NCBI GenBank assembly: GCA_033064195.1
Contig: JARBJD010000103.1
Location: forward strand, 158,849-222,848
Length of the DNA stretch: 64,000 nucleotides
Direction of reading: 5' to 3'
Origin: Blattamonas nauphoetae
Lineage: Eukaryota > Preaxostyla > Oxymonadida
Below are positions 6,287 through 62,737 of this stretch, piece after piece. Position numbers and translations under genes: made by a program. Position 1 is the first letter of the stretch. Each line of letters starts with the position of its first letter. The notes beneath the pieces are model-generated. The model searched no databases and had not been told where the DNA came from. It was given only the letters and a program-made list of their open reading frames with translations.

Positions 6287-6621
6287 CTTTATCGGTGATA
6301 GTTTTTGAAGAAAGCTAAAGAAGAATAAGTCGAAAATATTCAAACAAATCATATTTTCGTGATGCTGACGGGCGAAAGTGTGATAGATCGTAGATAACGG
6401 CCTTATTTCCTTTGGGACGAGATGGACTAAACTTGGAACGAGCATTTGACCGTGTATTGAGAGAAGTCATCTCAGACCTCTCACAGATCAAATGTTGTGG
6501 CATGATCGACGATGAACAGTTATCCAGTTGTTCAATCCAGTAGCAAGATAAAAAAAGACAGAAAACCAACATATAATTGAAAATATGAAATCAAAAATAG
6601 GAGATAGATGAGAATTAACGC
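6287..6621. other. Intergenic region
   Basis: 335 bp between the start of the disordered-protein gene and the stop of the next beta-helix gene, both on the minus strand. It should contain a promoter for the former and a 3' UTR for the latter. No RNA gene or further coding signal was seen. Confidence 0.5.
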
Positions 6622-35358: not shown

Positions 35359-35923
35359 GCTAAATTTGACTCTGAAGATCATGTTGTTCTCGAACATTAA
35401 TAAAACACTCATCGGAATGTATTTCATTTCTCATCAGAACCAACACTTCAAGTCATTTCACACAATTTATTTTCCTCATCGATAATGAAGGTTTGCAAAT
35501 TCGGGGTGACAAAGGGAATTAGTGTGGGCCGATCTGGATTTGTTAGAAATCTATTTGAAGAATCAATCCAATTTCTCTTCTTAGCAATGTTTCTGATTCT
35601 TCCAAAAGCCTAGGCATGGGCAGCGGTCGGTCCGACTGCTCGTCGACCGACCGACTGCTTTTTTTCCCGATCGTACCCTTTTCCAGCAAAATCGATGATG
35701 AAGTCGCTGAGAACGTTTTTTTAACTCTTTTCTTCAATTTCCTTTATTTCTGATTGAATTGTTGTTGAAAGATACTGGACTGAAACAGAACAAACACTAA
35801 TGAAAGAGAGTGGAGTGAACTGTGAAACTGACCGCATTATCTCACTCTTTTCTTCTCGTTCGTCCTTCTCTTTCTCTTCTTCCCTCTCCCCTCCCATTCC
35901 AGTTCGACACAATCAGAGTCCCT
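35359..35923. other. Intergenic, with a short repeat shared with 55.7 kb
   Basis: No gene. At about 35611-35640 the sequence TAGGCATGGGCAGCGGTCGG matches, with one change, the reverse complement of about 55740-55763, at the head of the SINE-like element there. A local GGTCGGTC/GACCGACC inverted repeat follows (35625-35655). The rest is AT-rich with small unsupported ORFs. Confidence 0.45.
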
Positions 35924-36666
35924 TCATCGCTGCTGATCAGGCAAGCGATGTGCAGAAGACAGACGAGCAGAGAAAACCAAAGTGGCAAGTGTCAAAGATG
36001 ACGAACTGCCATGTTTCATGTCGGACACAACGTCGGGTGGTTGGGTCAGAAACACAGTTGCCATGCCCGCTGATGAGGACGAAATCAAGACATTGTGTTC
36101 GAGTTGAGAAGTGAATGTGAATGTTGTGTTGTCCACGACAAGGATTGTTCCGCAGTGATCCGCAGCGAGACGGGCACACCAACATCGAGTGAGTAGCAGG
36201 GCGACGAGTGCGATTCGCACGGTCCAAAAGTGGAGCCTTCTCCGCACCAACAATCTGCGAACGTCGCGTCAACTGCAAAGTCCCACTCGTTCTGCGTTGG
36301 AGTGAGGGAAACGAGACAGCAGCTGCTATCGCCTCCAGATGAGCAGGAAGGGGAGGACGAGTGTCTGATGACGATGCAGTTTGCTTGTTCGAAAACAGGA
36401 CCCCTCCATTCCCTGCTGACGAACACGATGCGAATGAAGAAGAGATTGTGCGGCTGCAGTGTGCTGCATTCACGCTGGTTCGTTCCGTCTTTGTGTTCGG
36501 GTGAAGTGAAGAGTGCGATGTGGACACGTCGATTTGCAAGATCTTTGGAAGTGGGTGTCCCTGCGGCATCCTCGTTGCTTCTCGGGACGATGACTGTCGC
36601 GCCACTGCTTCCAACTGAACTCTCGTTCGCGATGCGGTGTGTTCGATGAAGAACACCACACGGCAA
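35924..36666 (-). pseudogene. Degenerate beta-helix surface-protein relic
   Basis: Several overlapping minus-strand frames each show short pieces of surface-protein-like sequence: FVSREWRGPVFEQANCIVIR, SSAGNGGVLF, and CGTILVVDNTTFTFTSQLEH (36253 frame). No single frame carries them all and no conserved start or membrane anchor can be joined. This pattern fits a frameshifted remnant of the same family as the genes at 1242 and 6622. It abuts the minisatellite at 36873. Chance composition cannot be excluded for the individual pieces. Confidence 0.38.
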
Positions 36667-36872
36667 TTCCGAGTGGAAACAACAACTCGTTCAGTTCCGC
36701 TTCCCTCACCTCAGGATGCGGCTCGGCTGTCACGTCGAGGCTCTTCGGCAGAGTGTGACATGGCAAGAATGGGTGTCCGCACAGACAAAAGTTCGACGAG
36801 TTGGTTTCTGCATTGTTTGAGTGGTGAACGATCCAGCCACAGCGTTTGTGGGTTGAGGATGGACGGGTACAA

Positions 36873-37127
36873 GCTAGGGGCAGACCCCATTTTAGCTAGA
36901 GGCAGACCCCACTTGACTAGGCGCAGACCCCACTTGACTAGAGGCAGACCCCTCATGACTAGGTGCAGACCCCCCACTTGACTAGGCGCAGACCCCACTT
37001 GACTAGAGGCAGACCCCTCATGACTAGGTGCAGACCCCCCTTTGACTAGGTGCAGACCCCACTTTGACTAGGTGCAGACCCCACTTTGACTAGGTGCAGA
37101 CCCCACTTTGACTTGGTGCAGACCCCT
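36873..37127 (-). repeat. Minisatellite, about 12 copies of a 21-bp unit (inverted side)
   Basis: Tandem copies of a unit reading GTGCAGACCCCACTTTGACTAG on the plus strand, with variants (GGCAGACCCC, GCGCAGACCCC, CTCATGACTAG). Its reverse complement is the GGGGTCTGCACCTAGTCAAG unit separating the direct repeats at 38.8-51.8 kb, so this block is the inverted-orientation counterpart. There are no unique spacers between copies. Confidence 0.9.
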
Positions 37128-38612
37128 CCAGATTTCCGTTCTCATTCACTTTTTCATGGTAATTTTATGCTAATTAAGTCAAAAATCACTTCTAAAGCCG
37201 TTTTCTCAGACTTTTTCTCAATTATTGTTCGATTGTGTGGAAAACAGGAAAAGTGGAATGATCGTGGGTTGATCGAATGAATTAACCCAAACAAGTGAGG
37301 TTTTGGTGCGATTACATTCTTCTTGTTGTCTGCTTCTCTCTCCAGAAACCAATGCAAGAATATGAATGAACAATCTGACTTGTCAGCGATTCTTTCGTCT
37401 GAGATGGCGAGAAGAGATTGTTTGACAAGAACCACAGCAAAGACGATACAGCCAAGAAGAACGAGACAGACATGGTGTGCGGAGCGGTGGTCAGAATCGA
37501 CACAATCGAACAGGTAAGACAAAGTGCCATGAGCGCCTCGGACGGGCGGTATCACTCTCAAGAAAGCGTCTATCTTCGCAATCTTCCCGTGCAGGAGGAT
37601 ACAAGTTGTGGATGTGATGTATATTTCAATTGTCAACTGGAGATTGCATTTGGACAACAGTTTGATGATCTCTTCGTGAATCTCCAGCTGAACAGCACAA
37701 GGCGAGGAGAGGAGCAGTTTGATGTCGTTCCGAAGCGACTCATCGAGACTCAACACGGCCCGTAGAGAAGATCCCATTCTCAATCGGAGGACAGTGACAT
37801 GAGATGTGTTGATGAGGTTCGCGATGGTTGGGAGAGCCAGAGCAGCTGGATACCAGGTGAGAGCGGACGAGCGAGTCATCGACAGGGCAGACACGATGGA
37901 CAGGGGAGAGGACAGGGCCGACTGGATGACATTCGCTTCGAACTGGTCGGGGTCGGAGAGAGAAGTCAAGTTGAGGACTGTACGAGCGTGTTCAGCTGCT
38001 GCGCATCTTCCACACTCTGACTGAGATTCTTTTCCAGCTGGTTGGTCAGAATTGTCGTCTCAGTCGTCTTCCTCTGTCCCGACCCAACTGTCTGACTTGG
38101 CGTTTGCGTGTTGATCTGTTCCTCTTCGCATCGGAAGCTGGCTTCTAGTGCTTTGCGTCGATTGTCTTCGATGAACCGCTGCTCCTCAATTTCCTGATCC
38201 TGTTGTCGTTGAACCTTCTCTCCGTCACTCTTTCTTGCCTCGGCCTCAGCTTCCACACGGGTTTCTTCCCTCGCCAGCTTTTCTGTCCATTCTTCTCCTT
38301 TCTAACTTCGGCGCCACGTTTTGTCTCTTCTTCTTGTTTGGCCTCGTTATCATCCTCCTGTTCTTCTTTTCCTTCTCCCTCCTCTTCCCTAGCAATGGGA
38401 TCTGCTTCATTTCTGTCTTTATCATAATACTCTGGCTCAGATTCGTCGAATGTAATTCCTCTTCGGATCTGGGCATGATAGTTCGGAGAATCAGGGGGAG
38501 GAGATTGTGAAAGTGTTGCCTGAATCATGGAATGTACGCTTGGGGAAATAGTCTACAGGATCAATAGAAACAATCAGAGCACAAAAATAAGAGTTCACGC
38601 TGGATGAGAATG
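37128..38612 (-). repeat. Diverged inverted copy of the 1.8-kb unit, with longer open frames
   Basis: Reverse complement of the direct units: the AT-rich tail (37128-37303), the solenoid-like coding region, the acidic region, and a left end matching CATTCTCATCCAGCGTGAAC at 38592-38611. The tail is almost identical to the direct units; the coding part is clearly diverged. Minus-strand frames here stay open longer: 37969-37154 (271 residues, containing SALSMTRSSALTWYPAA as in the direct units), 38528-38145 (acidic, opening MIQATLSQSPPPDSPNY) and 38256-37966 (coiled-coil, EKVQRQQDQEIEEQRF). Read together they suggest an ancestral acidic/coiled-coil protein of unknown function, still broken by frame changes here. 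It is probably the older copy from which the array's coding fragment was derived. Confidence 0.75.
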
Positions 38613-38667
38613 AGTCAACGGATTTGTTCATTTTTGTGAAAAAAGTTCGTGCTATGCGTTGACAGCA
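38613..38667. other. Junction between inverted copy and direct array
   Basis: 55 bp of sequence not found in the direct units. It links the end of the inverted unit to the first direct tail (starting AAAACCTCACTTGTTTGGG), and so marks the centre of the head-to-head arrangement. Confidence 0.6.
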
Positions 38668-39035
38668 CAAAAACCTCACTTGTTTGGGTTAATTCATTCG
38701 ATCAACCCACGATCATTCCACTTTTCCTGTTTTCCACACAATCGAACAATAATTGAGAAAAAGTCTGAGAAAACGGCTTTAGAAGTGATTTTTGACTTAA
38801 TTAGCATAAAATTACCATGAAAAAGTGAATGAAAACGGAAATCTGAAGGGGTCTGCACCAAGTCAAAGTGGGGTCTGCACCTAGTCAAGTGGGGGTCTGC
38901 ACCTAGTCAAGTGGGGGTCTGCACCTAGTCAAGTGGGGGGTCTGCACCTAGTCATGAGGGGTCTGCCTCTAGTCAAGTGGGGTCTGCCTCTAGTCAAGTG
39001 GGGTCTGCGCCTAACTAAAATGGGGTCTGCCTCTA

Positions 39036-40811
39036 GCTTTTACCATTCTCATCCAGCGTGAACGGTTCGTTTTTTCTCTGATTGTCTCTGTCGATCTGGC
39101 CGACTATTTCCCCAAGGGTACATTCCATGATTCAAACAACACTTTCACAATCTCCTCCCCCTGATTCTCCGAATTATCAAGCCCAGATCCGAACAGGAAT
39201 TGCATCCGACGAATCTGAGCCAGAGGATGATGATCAAGGCAGAAATGAAGCAGAGCCCTTTGCTAGCGAAGAGAAAGGAGAAGGAAAAGAAGAAGAGAAA
39301 GATGATACCGAGGCCAGACAAGAAGAGGAGACAACACGTGACGTCGAAGTCAGATGAAGATTGTGGATGGGAGACAGAAAGGCATGCGAGAGAAGATCTG
39401 CGACTTCCATTCGGACGATCTGGATTTGGGTGACTTGGGTCACGCTGAGACGACAAGTCTGACCAACCTGCTGGACAAGAATCTCAGTCAGATTGTGGAA
39501 GATGCGTTGCAGCTGAACAAAACGGATCTTGAGACGTCGGGAAGAAAGTTTGGACAGTCAAAAACACGCTCGTACAGTACTCAGCTCACTCACTCGCTCA
39601 CACAGCCCGTCGCAGGCGAAGATCGATGACATCAACATTCAGCTGCAAAGAAACATCGTCACAAACAACCAGTCCGAGTCCCGTGTTGCCGAATGCAATG
39701 CTCTGCTCGATCACTCTCCTCATTTCGTCGTTCACCCAAACTCAGAAACAGATCCAACTGATTCCATTCATCCACAGTCGATCCACACACGATCTGGGCC
39801 ACACTTCCCTCACACTCATTCCACGACCATCTGCTCTCAACTTGTTCGTACAAAGCGTCGGAATCTCCTCGCTCGCTCAAATCGTCCTCATCTTGACTTC
39901 TCTCTCCGACACCGACCAGTTCGACGCGAATATCATCCAGTCGGCCCTGTCACCTGACCTGTCCATCGTATCTGCCCTGTCGATGACTCGCTCGTCCGCT
40001 CTCACCTGGTATCCAGCTGCTGTGGCTCTCACATCCATCGCGAACCTCATCCCACCACAGCCTGCCAAGATCCTCGAAGCCACCCTCCCCTCGCCATCCA
40101 TCTTTGAGTCCACGTTTGTCCTCCAAGCAGCATCGACTCTCCTCAACACATCTCACGTCACTGTCCTCTTGTCAAGCAGGAAGTCATCACAACTCCGAAC
40201 CGCTCTGTCCTCCGATTGAGAATGGGATCTTCTCTGCTGACTGTGTTGAGTCTCGATGAGTCACATCGCTACGCCATCTCACACGAATGAATCGCCGACA
40301 ACGACAAGTCAGATTGTTCATTCATTCTCTTGTTCTTCATCTCGAACTCCCACTTTGGACGGAGTTGTTCTCCAGTACCATTTCGATGATGAGATCTCAT
40401 TTTTCCCTTCTTTGAACGTTGTCCTCGGTCCAATTCTCGCGTTGGTTTCTGGAGAGAGAAGCAGACAAGAAGAAGAATGTAATCGCACCAAAACCTCACT
40501 TGTTTGGGTTAATTCATTCGATCAACCCACGATCATTCCACTTTTCCTGTTTTCCACACAATCGAACAATAATTGAGAAAAAGTCTGAGAAAACGGCTTT
40601 AGAAGTGATTTTTGACTTAATTAGCATAAAATTACCATGAAAAAGTGAATGAAAACGGAAATCTGAAGGGGTCTGCACCAAGTCAAAGTGGGGTCTGCAC
40701 CTAGTCAAGTGGGGGTCTGCACCTAGTCAAGTGGGGGTCTGCACCTAGTCAAGTGGGGTCTGCCTCTAGTCAAGTGGGGTCTGCGCCTAACTAAAATGGG
40801 GTCTGCCTCTA
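39036..40811 (+). repeat. Array unit 1 (1776 bp)
   Basis: ORFs: acidic 91 codons (39082-39357), 91 codons (39354-39629), 197 codons (39626-40219), 106 codons (40256-40576). It carries five A's in the run at about 39559, which ends the second ORF early. It has the shortest full minisatellite of the array (about seven repeats, 40675-40811), explaining the short spacing. Confidence 0.88.
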
Positions 40812-42690
40812 GCTTTTACCATTCTCATCCAGCGTGAACGGTTCGTTTTTTCTCTGATTGTCTCTGTCGATCTGGCCGACTATTTCCCCAAGGGTACATT
40901 CCATGATTCAAACAACACTTTCACAATCTCCTCCCCCTGATTCTCCGAATTATCAAGCCCAGATCCGAACAGGAATTGCATCCGACGAATCTGAGCCAGA
41001 GGATGATGATCAAGGCAGAAATGAAGCAGAGCCCTTTGCTAGCGAAGAGAAAGGAGAAGGAAAAGAAGAAGAGAAAGATGATACCGAGGCCAGACAAGAA
41101 GAGGAGACAACACGTGACGTCGAAGTCAGATGAAGATTGTGGATGGGAGACAGAAAGGCATGCGAGAGAAGATCTGCGACTTCCATTCGGACGATCTGGA
41201 TTTGGGTGACTTGGGTCACGCTGAGACGACAAGTCTGACCAACCTGCTGGACAAGAATCTCAGTCAGATTGTGGAAGATGCGTTGCAGCTGAACAAAACG
41301 GATCTTGAGACGTCGGGAAGAAAGTTTGGACAGTCAAAAACACGCTCGTACAGTACTCAGCTCACTCACTCGCTCACACAGCCCGTCGCAGGCGAAGATC
41401 GATGACATCAACATTCAGCTGCAAAGAAACATCGTCACAAACAACCAGTCCGAGTCCCGTGTTGCCGAATGCAATGCTCTGCTCGATCACTCTCCTCATT
41501 TCGTCGTTCACCCAAACTCAGAAACAGATCCAACTGATTCCATTCATCCACAGTCGATCCACACACGATCTGGGCCACACTTCCCTCACACTCATTCCAC
41601 GACCATCTGCTCTCAACTTGTTCGTACAAAGCGTCGGAATCTCCTCGCTCGCTCAAATCGTCCTCATCTTGACTTCTCTCTCCGACACCGACCAGTTCGA
41701 CGCGAATATCATCCAGTCGGCCCTGTCACCTGACCTGTCCATCGTATCTGCCCTGTCGATGACTCGCTCGTCCGCTCTCACCTGGTATCCAGCTGCTGTG
41801 GCTCTCACATCCATCGCGAACCTCATCCCACCACAGCCTGCCAAGATCCTCGAAGCCACCCTCCCCTCGCCATCCATCTTTGAGTCCACGTTTGTCCTCC
41901 AAGCAGCATCGACTCTCCTCAACACATCTCACGTCACTGTCCTCTTGTCAAGCAGGAAGTCATCACAACTCCGAACCGCTCTGTCCTCCGATTGAGAATG
42001 GGATCTTCTCTGCTGACTGTGTTGAGTCTCGATGAGTCACATCGCTACGCCATCTCACACGAATGAATCGCCGACAACGACAAGTCAGATTGTTCATTCA
42101 TTCTCTTGTTCTTCATCTCGAACTCCCACTTTGGACGGAGTTGTTCTCCAGTACCATTTCGATGATGAGATCTCATTTTTCCCTTCTTTGAACGTTGTCC
42201 TCGGTCCAATTCTCGCGTTGGTTTCTGGAGAGAAGCAGACAAGAAGAAGAATGTAATCGCACCAAAACCTCACTTGTTTGGGTTAATTCATTCGATCAAC
42301 CCACGATCATTCCACTTTTCCTGTTTTCCACACAATCGAACAATAATTGAGAAAAGTCTGAGAAAACGGCTTTAGAAGTGATTTTTGACTTAATTAGCAT
42401 AAAATTACCATGAAAAAGTGAATGAAAACGGAAATCTGAAGGGGTCTGCACCAAGTCAAAGTGGGGTCTGCACCTAGTCAAGTGGGGGTCTGCACCTAGT
42501 CAAGTGGGGGTCTGCACCTAGTCAAGTGGGGGTCTGCACCTAGTCATGAGGGGTCTGCCTCTAGTCAAGTGGGGTCTGCCTCTAGTCAAGTGGGGTCTGC
42601 ACCTAGTCATGAGGGGTCTGCCTCTAGTCAAGTGGGGTCTGCCTCTAGTCAAGTGGGGTCTGCGCCTAACTAAAATGGGGTCTGCCTCTA
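40812..42690 (+). repeat. Array unit 2 (1879 bp)
   Basis: Same ORF layout as unit 1 with five A's in the polymorphic run. A 2-nt deletion in the GGAGAGAGAAGC stretch (about 42228) shortens the 3' ORF to 74 codons (42032-42256). It has the longest minisatellite (42445-42690, about eleven to twelve repeats), in which a CATGAGG/CAAGTGG sub-block is duplicated. Confidence 0.88.
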
Positions 42691-44507
42691 GCTTTTACCA
42701 TTCTCATCCAGCGTGAACGGTTCGTTTTTTCTCTGATTGTCTCTGTCGATCTGGCCGACTATTTCCCCAAGGGTACATTCCATGATTCAAACAACACTTT
42801 CACAATCTCCTCCCCCTGATTCTCCGAATTATCAAGCCCAGATCCGAACAGGAATTGCATCCGACGAATCTGAGCCAGAGGATGATGATCAAGGCAGAAA
42901 TGAAGCAGAGCCCTTTGCTAGCGAAGAGAAAGGAGAAGGAAAAGAAGAAGAGAAAGATGATACCGAGGCCAGACAAGAAGAGGAGACAACACGTGACGTC
43001 GAAGTCAGATGAAGATTGTGGATGGGAGACAGAAAGGCATGCGAGAGAAGATCTGCGACTTCCATTCGGACGATCTGGATTTGGGTGACTTGGGTCACGC
43101 TGAGACGACAAGTCTGACCAACCTGCTGGACAAGAATCTCAGTCAGATTGTGGAAGATGCGTTGCAGCTGAACAAAACGGATCTTGAGACGTCGGGAAGA
43201 AAGTTTGGACAGTCAAAACACGCTCGTACAGTACTCAGCTCACTCACTCGCTCACACAGCCCGTCGCAGGCGAAGATCGATGACATCAACATTCAGCTGC
43301 AAAGAAACATCGTCACAAACAACCAGTCCGAGTCCCGTGTTGCCGAATGCAATGCTCTGCTCGATCACTCTCCTCATTTCGTCGTTCACCCAAACTCAGA
43401 AACAGATCCAACTGATTCCATTCATCCACAGTCGATCCACACACGATCTGGGCCACACTTCCCTCACACTCATTCCACGACCATCTGCTCTCAACTTGTT
43501 CGTACAAAGCGTCGGAATCTCCTCGCTCGCTCAAATCGTCCTCATCTTGACTTCTCTCTCCGACACCGACCAGTTCGACGCGAATATCATCCAGTCGGCC
43601 CTGTCACCTGACCTGTCCATCGTATCTGCCCTGTCGATGACTCGCTCGTCCGCTCTCACCTGGTATCCAGCTGCTGTGGCTCTCACATCCATCGCGAACC
43701 TCATCCCACCACAGCCTGCCAAGATCCTCGAAGCCACCCTCCCCTCGCCATCCATCTTTGAGTCCACGTTTGTCCTCCAAGCAGCATCGACTCTCCTCAA
43801 CACATCTCACGTCACTGTCCTCTTGTCAAGCAGGAAGTCATCACAACTCCGAACCGCTCTGTCCTCCGATTGAGAATGGGATCTTCTCTGCTGACTGTGT
43901 TGAGTCTCGATGAGTCACATCGCTACGCCATCTCACACGAATGAATCGCCGACAACGACAAGTCAGATTGTTCATTCATTCTCTTGTTCTTCATCTCGAA
44001 CTCCCACTTTGGACGGAGTTGTTCTCCAGTACCATTTCGATGATGAGATCTCATTTTTCCCTTCTTTGAACGTTGTCCTCGGTCCAATTCTCGCGTTGGT
44101 TTCTGGAGAGAGAAGCAGACAAGAAGAAGAATGTAATCGCACCAAAACCTCACTTGTTTGGGTTAATTCATTCGATCAACCCACGATCATTCCACTTTTC
44201 CTGTTTTCCACACAATCGAACAATAATTGAGAAAAGTCTGAGAAAACGGCTTTAGAAGTGATTTTTGACTTAATTAGCATAAAATTACCATGAAAAGTGA
44301 ATGAAAACGGAAATCTGAAGGGGTCTGCACCAAGTCAAAGTGGGGTCTGCACCTAGTCAAGTGGGGGTCTGCACCTAGTCAAGTGGGGGTCTGCACCTAG
44401 TCAAGTGGGGGGTCTGCACCTAGTCATGAGGGGTCTGCCTCTAGTCAAGTGGGGTCTGCCTCTAGTCAAGTGGGGTCTGCGCCTAACTAAAATGGGGTCT
44501 GCCTCTA
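42691..44507 (+). repeat. Array unit 3 (1817 bp)
   Basis: Four A's in the polymorphic run at about 43216 fuse the second ORF into a 200-codon frame (43009-43611). The overlapping 229-codon frame (43184-43873) covers the solenoid-like part. The tail has shortened A runs (GAGAAAAGTCTG, CATGAAAAGTG). Confidence 0.88.
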
Positions 44508-46324
44508 GCTTTTACCATTCTCATCCAGCGTGAACGGTTCGTTTTTTCTCTGATTGTCTCTGTCGATCTGGCCGACTATTTCCCCAAGGGTACATTCCAT
44601 GATTCAAACAACACTTTCACAATCTCCTCCCCCTGATTCTCCGAATTATCAAGCCCAGATCCGAACAGGAATTGCATCCGACGAATCTGAGCCAGAGGAT
44701 GATGATCAAGGCAGAAATGAAGCAGAGCCCTTTGCTAGCGAAGAGAAAGGAGAAGGAAAAGAAGAAGAGAAAGATGATACCGAGGCCAGACAAGAAGAGG
44801 AGACAACACGTGACGTCGAAGTCAGATGAAGATTGTGGATGGGAGACAGAAAGGCATGCGAGAGAAGATCTGCGACTTCCATTCGGACGATCTGGATTTG
44901 GGTGACTTGGGTCACGCTGAGACGACAAGTCTGACCAACCTGCTGGACAAGAATCTCAGTCAGATTGTGGAAGATGCGTTGCAGCTGAACAAAACGGATC
45001 TTGAGACGTCGGGAAGAAAGTTTGGACAGTCAAAACACGCTCGTACAGTACTCAGCTCACTCACTCGCTCACACAGCCCGTCGCAGGCGAAGATCGATGA
45101 CATCAACATTCAGCTGCAAAGAAACATCGTCACAAACAACCAGTCCGAGTCCCGTGTTGCCGAATGCAATGCTCTGCTCGATCACTCTCCTCATTTCGTC
45201 GTTCACCCAAACTCAGAAACAGATCCAACTGATTCCATTCATCCACAGTCGATCCACACACGATCTGGGCCACACTTCCCTCACACTCATTCCACGACCA
45301 TCTGCTCTCAACTTGTTCGTACAAAGCGTCGGAATCTCCTCGCTCGCTCAAATCGTCCTCATCTTGACTTCTCTCTCCGACACCGACCAGTTCGACGCGA
45401 ATATCATCCAGTCGGCCCTGTCACCTGACCTGTCCATCGTATCTGCCCTGTCGATGACTCGCTCGTCCGCTCTCACCTGGTATCCAGCTGCTGTGGCTCT
45501 CACATCCATCGCGAACCTCATCCCACCACAGCCTGCCAAGATCCTCGAAGCCACCCTCCCCTCGCCATCCATCTTTGAGTCCACGTTTGTCCTCCAAGCA
45601 GCATCGACTCTCCTCAACACATCTCACGTCACTGTCCTCTTGTCAAGCAGGAAGTCATCACAACTCCGAACCGCTCTGTCCTCCGATTGAGAATGGGATC
45701 TTCTCTGCTGACTGTGTTGAGTCTCGATGAGTCACATCGCTACGCCATCTCACACGAATGAATCGCCGACAACGACAAGTCAGATTGTTCATTCATTCTC
45801 TTGTTCTTCATCTCGAACTCCCACTTTGGACGGAGTTGTTCTCCAGTACCATTTCGATGATGAGATCTCATTTTTCCCTTCTTTGAACGTTGTCCTCGGT
45901 CCAATTCTCGCGTTGGTTTCTGGAGAGAGAAGCAGACAAGAAGAAGAATGTAATCGCACCAAAACCTCACTTGTTTGGGTTAATTCATTCGATCAACCCA
46001 CGATCATTCCACTTTTCCTGTTTTCCACACAATCGAACAATAATTGAGAAAAGTCTGAGAAAACGGCTTTAGAAGTGATTTTTGACTTAATTAGCATAAA
46101 ATTACCATGAAAAGTGAATGAAAACGGAAATCTGAAGGGGTCTGCACCAAGTCAAAGTGGGGTCTGCACCTAGTCAAGTGGGGGTCTGCACCTAGTCAAG
46201 TGGGGGTCTGCACCTAGTCAAGTGGGGGGTCTGCACCTAGTCATGAGGGGTCTGCCTCTAGTCAAGTGGGGTCTGCCTCTAGTCAAGTGGGGTCTGCGCC
46301 TAACTAAAATGGGGTCTGCCTCTA
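44508..46324 (+). repeat. Array unit 4 (1817 bp)
   Basis: Essentially identical to unit 3: four A's in the polymorphic run, 200-codon frame at 44826-45428, 229-codon frame at 45001-45690, shortened tail A runs. Units 3 and 4 look like the most recent duplication pair. Confidence 0.88.
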
Positions 46325-48137
46325 GCTTTTACCATTCTCATCCAGCGTGAACGGTTCGTTTTTCTCTGATTGTCTCTGTCGATCTGGCCGACTATTTCCC
46401 CAAGGGTACATTCCATGATTCAAACAACACTTTCACAATCTCCTCCCCTGATTCTCCAGATTATCAAGCCCAGATCCGAACAGGAATTGCATCCGACGAA
46501 TCTGAGCCAGAGGATGATGATCAAGGCAGAAATGAAGCAGAGCCCTTTGCTAGCGAAGAGAAAGGAGAAGGAAAAGAAGAAGAGAAAGATGATACCGAGG
46601 CCAGACAAGAAGAGGAGACAACACGTGACGTCGAAGTCAGATGAAGATTGTGGATGGGAGACAGAAAGGCATGCGAGAGAAGATCTGCGACTTCCATTCG
46701 GACGATCTGGATTTGGGTGACTTGGGTCACGCTGAGACGACAAGTCTGACCAACCTGCTGGACAAGAATCTCAGTCAGATTGTGGAAGATGCGTTGCAGC
46801 TGAACAAAACGGATCTTGAGACGTCGGGAAGAAAGTTTGGACAGTCAAAACACGCTCGTACAGTACTCAGCTCACTCACTCGCTCACACAGCCCGTCGCA
46901 GGCGAAGATCGATGACATCAACATTCAGCTGCAAAGAAACATCGTCACAAACAACCAGTCCGAGTCCCGTGTTGCCGAATGCAATGCTCTGCTCGATCAC
47001 TCTCCTCATTTCGTCGTTCACCCAAACTCAGAAACAGATCCAACTGATTCCATTCATCCACAGTCGATCCACACACGATCTGGGCCACACTTCCCTCACA
47101 CTCATTCCACGACCATCTGCTCTCAACTTGTTCGTACAAAGCGTCGGAATCTCCTCGCTCGCTCAAATCGTCCTCATCTTGACTTCTCTCTCCGACACCG
47201 ACCAGTTCGACGCGAATATCATCCAGTCGGCCCTGTCACCTGACCTGTCCATCGTATCTGCCCTGTCGATGACTCGCTCGTCCGCTCTCACCTGGTATCC
47301 AGCTGCTGTGGCTCTCACATCCATCGCGAACCTCATCCCACCACAGCCTGCCAAGATCCTCGAAGCCACCCTCCCCTCGCCATCCATCTTTGAGTCCACG
47401 TTTGTCCTCCAAGCAGCATCGACTCTCCTCAACACATCTCACGTCACTGTCCTCTTGTCAAGCAGGAAGTCATCACAACTCCGAACCGCTCTGTCCTCCG
47501 ATTGAGAATGGGATCTTCTCTGCTGACTGTGTTGAGTCTCGATGAGTCACATCGCTACGCCATCTCACACGAATGAATCGCCGACAACGACAAGTCAGAT
47601 TGTTCATTCATTCTCTTGTTCTTCATCTCGAACTCCCACTTTGGACGGAGTTGTTCTCCAGTACCATTTCGATGATGAGATCTCATTTTCCCTTCTTTGA
47701 ACGTTGTCCTCGGTCCAATTCTCGCGTTGGTTTCTGGAGAGAGAAGCAGACAAGAAGAAGAATGTAATCGCACCAAAACCTCACTTGTTTGGGTTAATTC
47801 ATTCGATCAACCCACGATCATTCCACTTTTCCTGTTTTCCACACAATCGAACAATAATTGAGAAAAGTCTGAGAAAACGGCTTTAGAAGTGATTTTTGAC
47901 TTAATTAGCATAAAATTACCATGAAAAGTGAATGAAAACGGAAATCTGAAGGGTCTGCACCAAGTCAAAGTGGGGTCTGCACCTAGTCAAGTGGGGGTCT
48001 GCACCTAGTCAAGTGGGGGTCTGCACCTAGTCAAGTGGGGGGTCTGCACCTAGTCATGAGGGGTCTGCCTCTAGTCAAGTGGGGTCTGCCTCTAGTCAAG
48101 TGGGGTCTGCGCCTAACTAAAATGGGGTCTGCCTCTA
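46325..48137 (+). repeat. Array unit 5 (1813 bp)
   Basis: Four A's in the polymorphic run (200-codon frame 46641-47243). It is the only unit with one C fewer in CCTCCCCCTGA and CCAGATT for CCGAATT (about 46444-46460). This shifts the acidic reading frame, so the acidic ORF is replaced by a 116-codon frame (46370-46720). It also has one T fewer near 46361 and one G fewer at the minisatellite start. Confidence 0.88.
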
Positions 48138-49953
48138 GCTTTTACCATTCTCATCCAGCGTGAACGGTTCGTTTTTTCTCTGATTGTCTCTGTCGATCTG
48201 GCCGACTATTTCCCCAAGGGTACATTCCATGATTCAAACAACACTTTCACAATCTCCTCCCCCTGATTCTCCGAATTATCAAGCCCAGATCCGAACAGGA
48301 ATTGCATCCGACGAATCTGAGCCAGAGGATGATGATCAAGGCAGAAATGAAGCAGAGCCCTTTGCTAGCGAAGAGAAAGGAGAAGGAAAAGAAGAAGAGA
48401 AAGATGATACCGAGGCCAGACAAGAAGAGGAGACAACACGTGACGTCGAAGTCAGATGAAGATTGTGGATGGGAGACAGAAAGGCATGCGAGAGAAGATC
48501 TGCGACTTCCATTCGGACGATCTGGATTTGGGTGACTTGGGTCACGCTGAGACGACAAGTCTGACCAACCTGCTGGACAAGAATCTCAGTCAGATTGTGG
48601 AAGATGCGTTGCAGCTGAACAAAACGGATCTTGAGACGTCGGGAAGAAAGTTTGGACAGTCAAAAACACGCTCGTACAGTACTCAGCTCACTCACTCGCT
48701 CACACAGCCCGTCGCAGGCGAAGATCGATGACATCAACATTCAGCTGCAAAGAAACATCGTCACAAACAACCAGTCCGAGTCCCGTGTTGCCGAATGCAA
48801 TGCTCTGCTCGATCACTCTCCTCATTTCGTCGTTCACCCAAACTCAGAAACAGATCCAACTGATTCCATTCATCCACAGTCGATCCACACACGATCTGGG
48901 CCACACTTCCCTCACACTCATTCCACGACCATCTGCTCTCAACTTGTTCGTACAAAGCGTCGGAATCTCCTCGCTCGCTCAAATCGTCCTCATCTTGACT
49001 TCTCTCTCCGACACCGACCAGTTCGACGCGAATATCATCCAGTCGGCCCTGTCACCTGACCTGTCCATCGTATCTGCCCTGTCGATGACTCGCTCGTCCG
49101 CTCTCACCTGGTATCCAGCTGCTGTGGCTCTCACATCCATCGCGAACCTCATCCCACCACAGCCTGCCAAGATCCTCGAAGCCACCCTCCCCTCGCCATC
49201 CATCTTTGAGTCCACGTTTGTCCTCCAAGCAGCATCGACTCTCCTCAACACATCTCACGTCACTGTCCTCTTGTCAAGCAGGAAGTCATCACAACTCCGA
49301 ACCGCTCTGTCCTCCGATTGAGAATGGGATCTTCTCTGCTGACTGTGTTGAGTCTCGATGAGTCACATCGCTACGCCATCTCACACGAATGAATCGCCGA
49401 CAACGACAAGTCAGATTGTTCATTCATTCTCTTGTTCTTCATCTCGAACTCCCACTTTGGACGGAGTTGTTCTCCAGTACCATTTCGATGATGAGATCTC
49501 ATTTTCCCTTCTTTGAACGTTGTCCTCGGTCCAATTCTCGCGTTGGTTTCTGGAGAGAGAAGCAGACAAGAAGAAGAATGTAATCGCACCAAAACCTCAC
49601 TTGTTTGGGTTAATTCATTCGATCAACCCACGATCATTCCACTTTTCCTGTTTTCCACACAATCGAACAATAATTGAGAAAAGTCTGAGAAAACGGCTTT
49701 AGAAGTGATTTTTGACTTAATTAGCATAAAATTACCATGAAAAGTGAATGAAAACGGAAATCTGAAGGGGTCTGCACCAAGTCAAAGTGGGGTCTGCACC
49801 TAGTCAAGTGGGGGTCTGCACCTAGTCAAGTGGGGGTCTGCACCTAGTCAAGTGGGGGTCTGCACCTAGTCATGAGGGGTCTGCCTCTAGTCAAGTGGGG
49901 TCTGCCTCTAGTCAAGTGGGGTCTGCGCCTAACTAAAATGGAGTCTGCCTCTA
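48138..49953 (+). repeat. Array unit 6 (1816 bp)
   Basis: Five A's in the polymorphic run, so the second ORF ends at 91 codons (48456-48731) and the 197-codon frame starts at 48728. The T run in ATCTCATTTTCCC is one shorter than in units 1-4, as in units 5 and 8. The last full minisatellite repeat carries GGAGTCTGCC instead of GGGGTCTGCC. Confidence 0.88.
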
Positions 49954-51774
49954 GCTTTTACCATTCTCATCCAGCGTGAACGGTTCGTTTTTTCTCTGAT
50001 TGTCTCTGTCGATCTGGCCGACTATTTCCCCAAGGGTACATTCCATGATTCAAACAACACTTTCACAATCTCCTCCCCCTGATTCTCCGAATTATCAAGC
50101 CCAGATCCGAACAGGAATTGCATCCGACGAATCTGAGCCAGAGGATGATGATCAAGGCAGAAATGAAGCAGAGCCCTTTGCTAGCGAAGAGAAAGGAGAA
50201 GGAAAAGAAGAAGAGAAAGATGATACCGAGGCCAGACAAGAAGAGGAGACAACACGTGACGTCGAAGTCAGATGAAGATTGTGGATGGGAGACAGAAAGG
50301 CATGCGAGAGAAGATCTGCGACTTCCATTCGGACGATCTGGATTTGGGTGACTTGGGTCACGCTGAGACGACAAGTCTGACCAACCTGCTGGACAAGAAT
50401 CTCAGTCAGATTGTGGAAGATGCGTTGCAGCTGAACAAAACGGATCTTGAGACGTCGGGATGAAAGTTTGGACAGTCAAAAACACGCTCGTACAGTACTC
50501 AGCTCACTCACTCGCTCACACAGCCCGTCGCAGGCGAAGATCGATGACATCAACATTCAGCTGCAAAGAAACATCGTCACAAACAACCAGTCCGAGTCCC
50601 GTGTTGCCGAATGCAATGCTCTGCTCGATCACTCTCCTCATTTCGTCGTTCACCCAAACTCAGAAACAGATCCAACTGATTCCATTCATCCACAGTCGAT
50701 CCACACACGATCTGGGCCACACTTCCCTCACACTCATTCCACGACCATCTGCTCTCAACTTGTTCGTACAAAGCGTCGGAATCTCCTCGCTCGCTCAAAT
50801 CGTCCTCATCTTGACTTCTCTCTCCGACACCGACCAGTTCGACGCGAATATCATCCAGTCGGCCCTGTCACCTGACCTGTCCATCGTATCTGCCCTGTCG
50901 ATGACTCGCTCGTCCGCTCTCACCTGGTATCCAGCTGCTGTGGCTCTCACATCCATCGCGAACCTCATCCCACCACAGCCTGCCAAGATCCTCGAAGCCA
51001 CCCTCCCCCTCGCCATCCATCTTTGAGTCCACGTTTGTCCTCCAAGCAGCATCGACTCTCCTCAACACATCTCACGTCACTGTCCTCTTGTCAAGCAGGA
51101 AGTCATCACAACTCCGAACCGCTCTGTCCTCCGATTGAGAATGGGATCTTCTCTGCTGACTGTGTTGAGTCTCGATGAGTCACATCGCTACGCCATCTCA
51201 CACGAATGAATCGCCGACAACGACAAGTCAGATTGTTCATTCATTCTCTTGTTCTTCATCTCGAACTCCCACTTTGGACGGAGTTGTTCTCCAGTACCAT
51301 TTCGATGATGAGATCTCATTTTTCCCTTCTTTGAACGTTGTCCTCGGTCCAATTCTCGCGTTGGTTTCTGGAGAGAGAAGCAGACAAGAAGAAGAATGTA
51401 ATCGCACCAAAACCTCACTTGTTTGGGTTAATTCATTCGATCAACCCACGATCATTCCACTTTTCCTGTTTTCCACACAATCGAACAATAATTGAGAAAA
51501 AGTCTGAGAAAACGGCTTTAGAAGTGATTTTTGACTTAATTAGCATAAAATTACCATGAAAAAGTGAATGAAAACGGAAATCTGAAGGGGTCTGCACCAA
51601 GTCAAAGTGGGGTCTGCACCTAGTCAAGTGGGGGTCTGCACCTAGTCAAGTGGGGGTCTGCACCTAGTCAAGTGGGGGGTCTGCACCTAGTCATGAGGGG
51701 TCTGCCTCTAGTCAAGTGGGGTCTGCCTCTAGTCAAGTGGGGTCTGCGCCTAACTAAAATGGGGTCTGCCTCTA
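49954..51774 (+). repeat. Array unit 7 (1821 bp)
   Basis: A substitution (GGGAAGAAAG to GGGATGAAAG at 50461) creates a TGA that ends the second ORF at 63 codons (50272-50463). An extra C in ACCCTCCCCCTCGCC (about 51005) truncates the solenoid-like frame (50460-51026). Otherwise as unit 1, with long tail A runs. Confidence 0.88.
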
Positions 51775-53429
51775 GCTTTTACCATTCTCATCCAGCGTGA
51801 ACGGTTCGTTTTTTCTCTGATTGTCTCTGTCGATCTGGCCGACTATTTCCCCAAGGGTACATTCCATGATTCAAACAACACTTTCACAATCTCCTCCCCC
51901 TGATTCTCCGAATTATCAAGCCCAGATCCGAACAGGAATTGCATCCGACGAATCTGAGCCAGAGGATGATGATCAAGGCAGAAATGAAGCAGAGCCCTTT
52001 GCTAGCGAAGAGAAAGGAGAAGGAAAAGAAGAAGAGAAAGATGATACCGAGGCCAGACAAGAAGAGGAGACAACACGTGACGTCGAAGTCAGATGAAGAT
52101 TGTGGATGGGAGACAGAAAGGCATGCGAGAGAAGATCTGCGACTTCCATTCGGACGATCTGGATTTGGGTGACTTGGGTCACGCTGAGACGACAAGTCTG
52201 ACCAACCTGCTGGACAAGAATCTCAGTCAGATTGTGGAAGATGCGTTGCAGCTGAACAAAACGGATCTTGAGACGTCGGGAAGAAAGTTTGGACAGTCAA
52301 AAACACGCTCGTACAGTACTCAGCTCACTCACTCGCTCACACAGCCCGTCGCAGGCGAAGATCGATGACATCAACATTCAGCTGCAAAGAAACATCGTCA
52401 CAAACAACCAGTCCGAGTCCCGTGTTGCCGAATGCAATGCTCTGCTCGATCACTCTCCTCATTTCGTCGTTCACCCAAACTCAGAAACAGATCCAACTGA
52501 TTCCATTCATCCACAGTCGATCCACACACGATCTGGGCCACACTTCCCTCACACTCATTCCACGACCATCTGCTCTCAACTTGTTCGTACAAAGCGTCGG
52601 AATCTCCTCGCTCGCTCAAATCGTCCTCATCTTGACTTCTCTCTCCGACACCGACCAGTTCGACGCGAATATCATCCAGTCGGCCCTGTCACCTGACCTG
52701 TCCATCGTATCTGCCCTGTCGATGACTCGCTCGTCCGCTCTCACCTGGTATCCAGCTGCTGTGGCTCTCACATCCATCGCGAACCTCATCCCACCACAGC
52801 CTGCCAAGATCCTCGAAGCCACCCTCCCCTCGCCATCCATCTTTGAGTCCACGTTTGTCCTCCAAGCAGCATCGACTCTCCTCAACACATCTCACGTCAC
52901 TGTCCTCTTGTCAAGCAGGAAGTCATCACAACTCCGAACCGCTCTGTCCTCCGATTGAGAATGGGATCTTCTCTGCTGACTGTGTTGAGTCTCGATGAGT
53001 CACATCGCTACGCCATCTCACACGAATGAATCGCCGACAACGACAAGTCAGATTGTTCATTCATTCTCTTGTTCTTCATCTCGAACTCCCACTTTGGACG
53101 GAGTTGTTCTCCAGTACCATTTCGATGATGAGATCTCATTTTCCCTTCTTTGAACGTTGTCCTCGGTCCAATTCTCGCGTTGGTTTCTGGAGAGAGAAGC
53201 AGACAAGAAGAAGAATGTAATCGCACCAAAACCTCACTTGTTTGGGTTAATTCATTCGATCAACCCACGATCATTCCACTTTTCCTGTTTTCCACACAAT
53301 CGAACAATAATTGAGAAAAAGTCTGAGAAAACGGCTTTAGAAGTGATTTTTGACTTAATTAGCATAAAATTACCATGAAAAAGTGAATGAAAACGGAAAT
53401 CTGAAGGGGTCTGCACCAAGTCAAAGTGG
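51775..53429 (+). repeat. Array unit 8, terminal (1655 bp)
   Basis: Complete coding part and tail, ending within the first minisatellite repeat (CTGCACCAAGTCAAAGTGG) where unrelated sequence begins. Frames: 91 codons (51821-52096), 91 codons (52093-52368), 197 codons (52365-52958), 73 codons (53157-53378). The abrupt end marks the right boundary of the array. Confidence 0.88.
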
Positions 53430-54600
53430 TGTACAAACCGACGAGGCAGGGAACGGTGTTTTCTGTTCGAGCGTTGATTGCCACATCACATTTCGTGTCA
53501 TTCCTTCAGCTCCTTCGAGGAGCAGTCACCACGTTTGATGACTGCAGGGCGAATCCACGTTCAGGTTGGAGTGGAGACTTGAATAACGTTCGCAAGATGT
53601 TGAAAACGAGATCGATGAAAACGAACCTTGTTCATGACTGGATGGGAGAGAACATTGAAGCAAATGGCGGAGATGGGATGGGAGACTTGGTTGGGATCGG
53701 AATCATTCCGTGTCTTCTGCGCACAAGAGACGTGATCGTGTGACCGTTTCCAGAAAGTGCTTTTTATGACGACAAACAATCTGTCAAGCAGAGATAAGTG
53801 ACAGATCATCAGTTTGAAGGAAGGGGCGATGGAGAAGGACGTGATATTGGCCGTGTGCGATGGGACAGAGGTTCGTTGATGGTGACATCACGAGTTTCTG
53901 AAATATAGAGTATACCAGGAGGAAAAATTTAAGAAACGAAGAAATAATAAGAAGTAGACACGAGATTGTGACTGTTTCTGAGCGATAGATCAAGGTTTGA
54001 CCCAATGAAGATCGCTTGATTCCTTGTCGAGCTGTTCAGCTGAAGAGACATAAACAGTCGAAAAGAAGTCACTATATGCATGTTGAAAAGGGATTGGAGA
54101 GGTTGGAGATGTCTGTAGTGTGGACGGAGCACGAAAACAGTGGGATCTCTTTGACGACGACTGCATTAAAACAATCTGACGGGTTGAATGTGACGTTGTC
54201 GGGATGCGCCCTTTTGCACACCGATGTGCATGGAATTATATGTCCCTTCCTGGAAATGTGGCACGGTTGCAATACATTGGCGGAGAAACTTCTCATTCTC
54301 GTCGGGGATGGTCCACGAGAGTCCGATGCACGGGATCTCACTTGGAGTGTGTGATCATGAACACCTTCTGATTCTCACATGCATGGAAGGCTTGTCGGAT
54401 TCGTGTCCAGTGAGTGCTGCAACAAATCATATCTCTAAAAGAGGAAAAGTCATGAATCGAAAAGAGGGTGTCAGGTATTGTGAGGAGATGGAAACGAAGG
54501 CATGAAAAGACAGAGAACAAATGATGCTGAGAACAGACTCAAGGTGAGAGGCAAATCAGGTGTGAGAATAGTCGATGGAGGTGATATTTGTGTTCATCAG
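53430..54600 (-). pseudogene. Possible decayed surface-protein sequence
   Basis: No intact gene. Minus-strand frames contain scattered surface-protein-like pieces (DNVTFNPSDCFNAVVVKEIP and FSCSVHTTDISNLSNPFS at about 54100-54200; NQAIFIGSNLDLSLRN at about 53970-54020), separated by stops and frame changes. The pieces suggest an old beta-helix gene remnant next to the array. Evidence is weak. Confidence 0.3.
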
Positions 54601-54806
54601 TGGTAATGTGGTTCAAGAATCCTGACGAGACAAGAAATATTGAAAATGTGAAGAAAATACAAATCGAAGAAGACAAACGAGGGTTTGACGATAAGGTTGA
54701 GGATCATAGCTCGTTCGGACTCGGCTGTGGGACAGGGAGTCATTTGGAGTGAGATCCTGAATGAAATTGACAGTTCCGGATTGAGATGTTTTAAAACACC
54801 ATTTTA

Positions 54807-55402
54807 TAGATGTGTCATTAACCCGGTCCGTGTCAACAACCCGGAACCTGTGGCTGAAACAAACCGTTTTGGTCAAACTAAGAAAAAAATAAAATTTTAG
54901 AGTTTTCTATCGAGGCGAATCGGAGAAAACCTCAAAATACTGTATACAGCAGGAATACACACATTTTTTCACACTTTTTCAGCTCGTATCTCCACAACCA
55001 GCTATCCGTTTTGAATCAAATAAAATGCATTGTGATCGTAATCATCTCGACAAAAGCTGCTCAAAAAATAACCCTTTTTTTTCTAAGAATTTTTTGTTGA
55101 GAAAAATATGGGTTTTTTTCTATTTTCCCAAATATCCAGAACTTTTTCTCCAATTTTTTTTCACAATGTTCGTTTCACCGAAAAAACGTTTTTAAAACAA
55201 TTTTCATCAAAATCGATTCACTGGTTGTTGAGATATTGCCGACACGAGTTTTTTATCGGGCAAAAGGGGGTTTTTTGAGGTTTTCTCCGATTCGCGTCGA
55301 TAGAAAAATCTAAAATTTTATTTTTTTCTTAGTTTGACCAAAATGGTTTGTTTCAACCCCAGGTTCCGGGTTGTTGACAGAACCGGGTTAATGACACATC
55401 TA
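54807..55402. mobile_element. 596-bp inverted-repeat element (MITE-like) with TTA target duplication
   Basis: Left arm begins TAGATGTGTCATTAACCCGG at 54807 and right arm ends in its reverse complement at 55402. The arms match for about 130 bp each, with a few substitutions and a small indel, and include CAACAACCCGGAACCTG and TTTTGGTCAAACTAAG. The element is flanked on both sides by TTA (54804-54806 and 55403-55405), a 3-bp duplication of the kind made by PIF/Harbinger transposases. The centre is AT-rich and noncoding. No transposase is in the window, so it would be non-autonomous. Confidence 0.75.
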
Positions 55403-55439
55403 TTACAATTATCTATATCCATGGAAATGGTGTTCGAGT

Positions 55440-55765
55440 AAAAAGAAGGAGTCGGAGTCGGTCGGACAGGCCGACTTTTAGTCCAATGTTGGGGAAGGAC
55501 AGACCGACTCAGGGACTCTTGATCCACGGCCTTTTCCACTTTATTTTTGTGAAAAATGAGATGAACTATTTATTGAGATGTTGTGAATCAAAAATGAGAA
55601 AAACCGAATAATAAAGTGTCGTAGGCGGGATTCGATCCTGGGTCCGGGGAGCAAAAAGCTTCCGTGCTACCGCTCGACTAAAGGGGAGTTTAAAAAAGTC
55701 GCCGACTCTTTTATTTTTAGGGACTGGACTCGATGTTCTCAGACCGACCACTGCCCATGCCTACA
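55440..55765 (-). mobile_element. tRNA-derived SINE-like element
   Basis: On the minus strand, 55681-55620 carries a perfect pol III A box (TAGTCGAGCGG) and B box (GATCGAATC) at tRNA-like spacing. The candidate anticodon loop reads CTTTTTG (Lys-UUU-like, but with U instead of a purine at position 37). The acceptor stem does not pair and the T stem has mismatches, so a working tRNA is unlikely. The surrounding sequence (GGCATGGGCAGTGGTCGGTC upstream; GACCGACTC-rich tail downstream) is partly shared with about 35611-35640, as expected for a dispersed retroelement. Exact ends are approximate. Confidence 0.55.
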
Positions 55766-59468: not shown

Positions 59469-60519
59469 ATGAATCCAACTGCGATCTACAAAGAAAGACG
59501 TCGAGTATGTTCAGAACAAGCATTAATTACATCAATGAGAGAAGAGAACTGTTCACTAGTCTCTGAGTATGTCAGAAATAATGTGCCGGTGACGTATGTT
59601 CATGAGGGAATCAAAAATTTTATTTCCAATGAAAGAGCAAACAAAAATGAATCGACAAAAATACAATTCACAAATGATTGAGAAAATGATTGATCATAAT
59701 CTCTCAACAACCAACGAGAATTCGGCAGTGATTGAATCACTTCAGAAGACAACAGAAGCACACAAGACAGCGATCTCTTCAATTCAGAAAGTGGTGAGCA
59801 CAAATGGATCGATCACGACACCAACAATTGGAGGATTGATTCATGTGAATGGAGCGAAGTGGAATATCTCAGAAGGATCACTTCCGAAGTATCCTGGAAC
59901 ATATCCGGCATCAACATTTAAGTCTGGCATTTCAATTTCACAATCGATTTCAGAAACTTCTGGAATTCAGTTCAATGGTGATGGTATAAAAATGTGGTCT
60001 CCGTGTGACTCACCAGCTTTGTACTACTACGATGAGGACACTGGTTCAGGAGTGTTTTCAATATCCACAACAGGAAGTTTTTCTCAACTGTCAGACAGAA
60101 GAGTGAAAAGAAATATTGAACCATACCCCAATGTTCTCGAGCAACTGAATAAAGTGGAAATCGTTCGCTACCAATTCAACACATTCGACTCGAAGATCAA
60201 CAAAGTGACAAAGCAAATTGAAAATGAGACAGATGAAGAACACTTGAAGAACTGCAAAGAGAAATGTGAATGTCTGAAGAAGGAAAGAGAGAAGAAACAC
60301 ATTGGAGTGATTGCTCAACAGATCCAAGAAATATTTCCTGAAGTCGTGAATGATTCCAATCCAGATTGTCTTCAAGTTGAATATGCAGAACTCTCTTGCT
60401 TCTGTCTCAAAGCCATTCAGGAACTGAGTAGCATTGTCGGACAACAACAGACACTCATATATGAACTCATTCAAAAATATAATTCCCTGATCGAAACAAT
60501 GACTAATATTCCAACATGA
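59469..60519 (+). CDS. Virus-type fibre protein with S74 intramolecular chaperone (endosialidase-type) domain
   Basis: C-terminal domain (about residues 165-300 of the 59596 frame) matches peptidase family S74: SDRRVKRNIEPYPNVLEQL holds the Ser-Lys pair used for self-cleavage, followed by a charged insertion and HIGVIAQQIQEIFPEVV, the core 'G-x-x-A-Q-x-x-x-x-x-x-P-E' motif, then a terminal trimerising helix. In phages and Polinton-like elements this domain folds a trimeric fibre and then cleaves itself off. The N-terminal part is a short helix (AVIESLQKTTEAHKTAISSI) and a Gly/Ser-rich beta segment. A 70-codon frame at 59469 (MNPTAIYKERRRV) appears to be the true N-terminus but lies one frame away; the shift falls near the A run at about 59656. 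Either the gene is frameshifted, the run is miscalled, or translation starts at the ATG at 59648. Neighbouring capsid-like genes support a virus-like origin. Confidence 0.72.
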
Positions 60520-60538
60520 GATCAACCAGAAATTCATA

Positions 60539-60913
60539 TTACTCCTTGATTATTTTTCCATTGATTAACTCTTTAGTTTTCATCTCGATTGGTTCACCAG
60601 AACTGTCTTTGAACCAGATCTTCACAATTGATTGTCGAGTAGTTAATTCCCACTTCTTTCGCTTCGCAATCTGTTCGTTACAGAAAGCAACAAACGAGTC
60701 ATTGAATGCGTCAGTCTGGATCCAATCACCATGAATTGTGATGTGCTGAGGAATATCTTTTGAAATGACAGTTGAGTTACCTGTAATTTCTTCTTTCACA
60801 TGAATGAGTTTGCAGTCGAGAAAGTGAACATATTTTTGATTTCTAGAATTAGAAAAATCAGGAGGGAGTTGATCAGTGTGAGAATTTTGAATTGAGAAAT
60901 AACGTTTGACCAT
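60539..60913 (-). CDS. Small protein of the virus-like module, unknown function
   Basis: 124 residues from ATG at 60913 to a stop at 60539, in an AT-rich context. It opens MVKRYFSIQNSHTDQL and is a mix of short beta segments and charged helices (FVAFCNEQIAKRKKWELTTR) with no membrane segment or known motif. It lies between the fibre-like gene (convergent, 19 bp from its stop) and the capsid-like genes (same strand). By position it could be a minor virion or regulatory protein of the element. A T-rich tract sits 15-30 nt upstream of the start, as in the next gene. No homologue recognised. Confidence 0.55.
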   Translation of the reverse strand: MVKRYFSIQNSHTDQLPPDFSNSRNQKYVHFLDCKLIHVKEEITGNSTVISKDIPQHITIHGDWIQTDAFNDSFVAFCNEQIAKRKKWELTTRQSIVKIWFKDSSGEPIEMKTKELINGKIIKE

Positions 60914-60991
60914 TTCTGTTTTCTACAAAAATAAAATATCATATTTGTTCTGTTTAATATTATGACTTCGTCATTCTAATAAATCTTTGAT

Positions 60992-62685: not shown

Positions 62686-62737
62686 TTATAGAAAAATAAA
62701 AAATACAATATCAATAATTTCTTTTCCTGTTTTGTCT

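Follow-up and report, generated by a model that had tools for sequence, protein, structure and literature searches.

A candidate macrosatellite of host-gene fragments in the oxymonad Blattamonas nauphoetae, probably built from a Pack-MULE-like transposon by nested insertion and unequal exchange

The window analyzed here comprises the final 64 kb of contig C6 from the oxymonad Blattamonas nauphoetae and contains a tandem array of eight direct, nearly identical units of about 1.8 kb. It is nearly certain that each unit represents the interior of a non-autonomous Mutator-like element (MULE) together with one of its terminal inverted repeats (TIRs), without a transposase. The array is probably a macrosatellite made from such an element, which carries fragments of a host gene and thus resembles Pack-MULEs, by nested insertion of one copy into another and unequal exchange between their TIRs. 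The genome searched was the 88.3-Mb assembly of 837 contigs; C-numbers denote its contigs and L-numbers the loci that were read. Positions are those of the window, and "the compound" means the array plus element A, its inverted neighbor (16.6 kb in total).

The eight direct copies start 1776–1879 bp apart. Cut at the fixed junction (after positions 39044, 40820, 42699, 44516, 46333, 48146, 49962, and 51783), the first seven units are 1776, 1879, 1817, 1817, 1813, 1816, and 1821 bp long, and the eighth has 1646 bp. A 22-bp minisatellite is present in each unit; unit 1 contains 7 of its repeats, unit 2 contains 12, and units 3–7 contain 9 each, and most of the length variation results from this repeat number. 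Outside the minisatellite, the aligned units differ in three substituted columns, one 2-base deletion, and seven single-base homopolymer columns. The substitutions are private to units 5, 6, and 7 and the 2-base deletion to unit 2. The ungapped 300-nt families shown for the interior had 100% identity across all eight copies, except for D14/D15, in which unit 5 was at 99%. In 8 of 8 units, the TIR terminus TTTTACC is joined directly to ATTCTCATCC, i.e., to one identical internal site; within the window, the undisturbed sequence GACTCATTCTCATCC was found inside A only. Eight units above 1 kb in tandem at one locus, as counted in the assembly, would correspond to a macrosatellite. An earlier note on this DNA, prepared from the sequence alone, had described eight near-identical direct units of about 1.8 kb, which agrees with the spacing and the near-total identity outside the minisatellite. 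It had placed them at 38668–53429; the right end holds, but 38668–39044 is the right TIR of A, an element absent from the note, and units of interior plus TIR begin only at 39045. The features are listed in Table 1.

Table 1. Features of the array, its inverted neighbor, and the surrounding element (window coordinates).
Feature	Position	Strand	Description
Array of eight units	39045..53429	+	Each unit: element interior from ATTCTCATCC, leader, minisatellite, and TIR terminus; unit 8 breaks off within its minisatellite
Interior of unit 1	39045..40490	+	Fragments of the C341 host gene joined by internal deletions
TIR of unit 1	40491..40820	+	Leader, 7-repeat minisatellite, and terminus
Element A	36866..39044	-	Non-autonomous MULE in the orientation opposite to that of the array; interior diverged by ~10% from the units
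Left TIR of A	36866..37309	-	Terminus GGTACAAGCTAGGGGC, 12-repeat minisatellite, and leader
Right TIR of A	38668..39044	+	Leader, 9-repeat minisatellite, and terminus ...TTTTACC
hAT-like element holding the compound	35611..55763	.	TIR TAGGCATGGGCAG/CTGCCCATGCCTA, 8-bp duplication CAAAAGCC
Presumed target site GGATGGACG	36857..36865	+	Left side only; the same sequence without the insert in C220
Right breakpoint	53426..53429	.	Minisatellite joined to the flank with 4-bp microhomology GTGG
MITE-like (miniature inverted-repeat transposable element-like) insert in the hAT-like element	54808..55401	.	Ends approximate; inverted ends AGATGTGTCATTAACCCGG

The copy number of eight is that of one long-read assembly. 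The genome paper (PMC10703272) describes what is presumably this assembly as a Canu assembly of Nanopore reads, obtained from DNA sheared to about 20 kb, with polishing by Nanopolish and Pilon, and the homopolymer differences between units are suspect for this reason. An assembler could have expanded one or two units to eight: the length of the sheared DNA barely exceeds that of the compound, and the homopolymer differences resemble residual Nanopore error. Such an artefact is nevertheless very improbable in view of the private differences (the 7-repeat and 12-repeat minisatellites of units 1 and 2, the substitutions in units 5, 6, and 7, and the 2-base deletion in unit 2) and of the two edges of the compound, both resolved against empty homologues.

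When the genome was searched with the unit as well as with its repeat and its end, single copies appeared on other contigs, e.g., C565, C93, and C184. Their TIRs consist of the 22-bp minisatellite and a leader of ~175 bp. The copy on C565 (L009) starts with GGTAAAAGCTAG followed by the minisatellite, leader, and interior, then by the reversed leader and minisatellite, and ends with TTTTACC. Its interior is 99.3% identical to the units over the longest block (1006 bp), and the 9-bp target duplication AACTTTTGC flanks it on both sides. The C93 copy is likewise flanked by the 9-bp duplication GGACATGTC. The C299 copy has the same left flank as that of C93 and runs off the contig end, and the copy on C184 is shorter, with a damaged or truncated left end. 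An element on C113 represents a second subfamily, with the 9-bp duplication TCGATCAGA on both sides and TIRs of ~280 bp containing the same kind of 22-bp repeats (93.6% identity over a 298-bp match extending slightly beyond the ends); it sits within a sequence whose translation we read as mariner-like. In total, 9-bp duplications were found in all three distinct elements read at both intact ends (C565, C93, and C113), within the 8–11 bp given for MULEs (PMC6446971). The TIR-end pattern, with at most one mismatch allowed, had 45 matches in the genome, nine of them in the compound, and none in the control.

Among the matches listed for the MULE transposase domain PF10551 in the genome, 96 of 100 were over the cut-off. 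Outside C6, 3 of 15 head-to-head TIR pairs enclose a MULE domain by coordinates (C55, C76, and C90). At C90, the only one of the three that was read, the TIR end is followed by a transposase frame (PF10551, E=6e-21), and the TIR belongs to the second subfamily rather than to that of the window. The earlier note had recognized neither a transposase nor rRNA in the units. Both absences were borne out, but the unit itself is a MULE interior with a TIR, and related TIRs adjoin a MULE transposase elsewhere. Its refuting condition, that the unit belong to a known family of transposons encoding their own transposase, came half true: the family is of the MULE type, but this member lacks the transposase. 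A ribosomal, tRNA, or other known RNA unit was rejected, with 0 matches in the window. As for the second subfamily, the element at C113:24557-32036 (L045) is a 7.5-kb MULE-type element with several long open frames, as judged by eye, and TIR pairs at nearly its spacing recur at C2, C142, C578, and C605; elements of this type are perhaps another gene-carrying MULE present in many copies.

The interior of the units consists of fragments of a large host gene on C341. Its frame (L010:2179-9900) runs for 2574 codons without interruption and extends beyond the stretch fetched; the product is charged and coiled-coil-like, as judged by eye, and the frame had no Pfam match. Unit 1 keeps C341 positions ~2478–7457 in seven pieces with 84–90% identity. 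The interiors of the unit and of the C565, A, C93, and C184 elements all lie between C341 positions ~2478 and ~7430–7457, with partly different internal deletions, and the simplest reading is a single capture followed by separate internal deletions. Three piece junctions show overlaps of 3, 7, and 5 bases, which look like microhomology. From one piece to the next, the phase of the parent frame shifts, and three stops interrupt the 190 codons of the longest piece; hence, no protein is seen being kept in the units. The broken reading frames reported earlier are thus real; the view that the units were recently amplified or homogenized as DNA also holds, and nothing points to selection for a complete protein. 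Two unit frames tested had no Pfam match, and the units were rejected as a conserved protein family; no match over the cut-off was obtained for the longest frame of A. With host-gene fragments inside and no transposase, the units have the composition of a Pack-MULE.

Homology of the cargo to a large host gene might suggest that the array is a tandem host-gene family, formed by gene amplification and lying beside transposon ends by chance. This is hardly credible: all units start from a TIR terminus and include a TIR; internal deletions, phase changes, and stops disrupt the cargo; and the dispersed elements on C565 and C93, both flanked by 9-bp duplications, contain the same cargo.

Pieces of the C341 gene are also carried by an unrelated DNA transposon of ~3515 bp, so that two transposon families contain the same gene. 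It was detected on 15 contigs, and six copies were read (L011, L012, L013, L023, L024, and L025). Its ends are imperfect (ATAATGATGAGCAACGGAC...), 7-bp duplications were present in five of the six copies (the right end of the sixth was unread), and identity was 99.2–99.3% in 5 of 5 comparisons. Membership of the array units in this 3.5-kb dispersed family (C20, C836, C289, and others) was rejected, as it is a different transposon with 7-bp duplications. From sequence comparison, the C341 frame would be the parent, or a close relative, of the cargo in both families.

Element A, directly left of the array, belongs to the same family as the units and has both ends present. Its interior shares 83–95% identity with the units in blocks of 21–311 bp, and its right leader has no substitutions relative to the leaders of the units compared. 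As regards the foldback type of structure, the TIRs of 377 and 444 bp consist of 22-bp repeats for about half of their length, and the 1.36-kb interior is free of such repeats. The outermost left repeat of A carries CTAGGGGC, otherwise found only at the left end of the C565 copy (2 of the 45 TIR-end matches), and the inner left repeats are C184-like. No target duplication was seen around the window copy: GGATGGACG lies to the left of A and ATTCTCATC, which is array interior, to the right, and the right end of the array is deleted.

The earlier note placed the array in gene-dense surroundings; its immediate place is a transposon, not a gene, namely the element in Table 1 that holds the array and a MITE-like insert and that we take to be hAT-like from its TIR and duplication length, not from a transposase. 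Three frames of its flanks had no Pfam match. An empty copy of ~3.55 kb on C54 shares this TIR and is flanked by a different 8-bp duplication, CCAAAAGT; 8-bp duplications were thus present in both copies read. At the presumed target site, C54, C116, and C414 differ from GGATGGACG by a base pair or two. By coordinates, the two flanks of the compound lie 350–562 bp apart at six places with 96–98% identity (C54, C116, C461 twice, C414, and C748). Three of these pairs were read, with 562 bp between the flanks in C54 and C116 and 350 bp in C414. The 562 bp present in the empty copies on C54 and C116 are missing at the right edge of the array.

The following order of events is likely. Directly observed is the family with its leader and minisatellite TIRs and 9-bp duplications, whose members hold internally deleted versions of a single host gene. 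A copy B, related to the C565 copy, would have inserted into the hAT-like element at GGATGGACG, and a copy A, close to the C184 copy, would then have entered B at ATTCTCATC, facing the opposite way. This second insertion is deduced from the TIR terminus that stands at all eight junctions. After it, the right TIRs of A and B, a few hundred base pairs each, would have stood as direct repeats around the 1.45-kb interior of B, and unequal exchange between them could have repeatedly duplicated the B interior with one TIR, up to the eight units of the assembly. Unequal crossing-over, one of the mechanisms that the earlier note had suggested, is a likely route. An exchange between the two left TIRs would have removed the left part of B; the outermost left repeat of A is C565-like and the inner ones are C184-like, as expected after such an event. 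Finally, a deletion with the microhomology GTGG, whose junction was observed directly and whose place in the order is presumed, took the end of the last TIR together with any target duplication and 562 bp of target sequence.

The composition of the unit is consistent with these events. Compared to C565, the unit has 12 substitutions in 1312 positions of the interior and 7 in 175 positions of the leader (Fisher p=0.004), and its leader differs from the right and left leaders of A by 0/175 and 1/174, respectively. Judged by these differences, the unit would be a chimera of a C565-like interior and an A-like leader, which supports the insertion of A into B. Alternatively, the right TIR of B may have joined B's own interior at ATTCTCATC in an aborted transposition, giving a circle of interior plus TIR; rolling-circle or break-induced replication would have multiplied this circle, and homology with the TIR of A would have guided its return. 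The unit is exactly the content of such a circle, a TIR terminus stands at the junction in all eight units, and their near-identity fits a single burst. We consider this unlikely because the unit leader is A-like, not C565-like, and the repeat number differs among unit 1, unit 2, and units 3–7, as fits stepwise exchange, although neither point is decisive.

Several observations weigh against nested insertion with unequal exchange or against the evidence adduced for it. Given that A and the array have no target duplication around them, the insertion of A into B is argued from the TIR terminus at the junctions, and a second copy of ATTCTCATC or GGATGGACG was not found at the expected places. Leaders differ even within single elements (left versus right, 11/173 in C565 and 10/174 in C93); this family thus exchanges its ends in any case, and the chimera argues less strongly than its p-value suggests. 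The minisatellite of the unit is a mosaic in its own right, with A/C184-like outer repeats and a C565-like inner edge (TTCAGA). The right TIR of A may have been homogenized by the array, so that its identity to the units proves little alone. C565 lacks ~132 bp that the units have and is therefore a relative of B, not B itself. The homopolymer differences common to neighboring units may be sequencing errors. As to the transposase, the C90 TIR is only ~74–80% alike to the TIRs of the window family in the longer matches, and the CAGACCCC repeat was absent within 3.3 kb of the six best-scoring MULE-domain loci (L046-L051). From these sequences, most transposases of the genome may act on other families, or many may be located at a greater distance from their ends.

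Tandem repeats derived from transposons are already known, and the array is a further example of that kind. The routes from transposon to tandem repeat have mostly been argued from old, blurred arrays. Here, several steps are legible in one genome, with relatives of both sources, an empty target, a TIR end at all junctions, and a diverged partner copy, and the array appears to be a readable, recent example of a transposon becoming a long tandem repeat. Tandem long terminal repeat (LTR) retrotransposons arise by LTR-LTR exchange. Our reading shares with them the idea of unequal exchange between direct terminal repeats, but the ends of TIR elements are inverted, and thus a nested insertion must come first for the ends of two copies to act as direct repeats in recombination. 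Such tandem LTR retrotransposons have been reported (PMC11899658). The closest case found by mechanism and superfamily is Tetris, a foldback transposon of Drosophila virilis that its authors assign to the Mutator superfamily, with duplications of 8–10 bp (PMC4079207). Tetris also has long TIRs with internal tandem repeats and is a source of kilobase-size tandem arrays; unlike in our case, a TIR repeat of ~220 bp is amplified there, whereas here it is the whole interior with its cargo and one TIR, and the minisatellite stays short. Among the works listed on MULE tandem arrays, nested insertion, and TIR recombination, which comprised reviews and plant and animal work, no matching case was seen. 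It is tempting, though doubtful, to see a general machine here: in TIR transposons with long, internally repetitive TIRs nested in their own kind, the ends of two nested copies would become direct repeats, and the cargo between them would be amplified into arrays of captured host-gene fragments.

Pack-MULEs are said to have been described by Jiang et al. in 2004 as non-autonomous Mutator-like elements with host gene fragments. The family of the window resembles them in its long TIRs, 9-bp duplications, absence of a transposase, host-gene fragments, and transposase-bearing relatives in the genome; it differs in its oxymonad host, the minisatellite in its TIRs, and the conversion of one locus into a tandem array. 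As far as the consulted portions of the sources go, Pack-MULEs are described for plant genomes (PMC6446971), a similar remark is made for brown algae (PMC12477816), and a paper on fungal "transduplication" uses the term as well (PMC3538342). MULEs of a metamonad protist are represented by the Mutator-like elements of Trichomonas vaginalis (PMC2725143); in the main text of that paper, as searched, "non-autonomous" and "tandem repeat" do not occur, and "Pack-MULE" is found in the references only. The terms "Mutator" and "MULE" do not appear in the main text of the paper describing the Monocercomonoides exilis genome (PMC8767320). Among the papers listed on transposons of oxymonads and Preaxostyla, none dealt with gene capture by MULEs, and no paper in the collection searched combined Pack-MULEs with oxymonads. 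The present family documents gene-fragment-carrying MULEs in an oxymonad, and the array points to a testable way in which a cargo gene could be multiplied.

Two other parts of the window were noted. The MITE-like insert, ~600 bp long, has dozens of related copies in the genome at ~80–98% identity. The contig end at 59593-64000 is A+T-rich (61–63%) and contains a frame with a Peptidase_S74 chaperone domain (PF13884, 4.3e-14), along with four frames that had no Pfam match, one of which, the last frame of the window, had 0 PDB matches; this region looks virus-like or Polinton-like.

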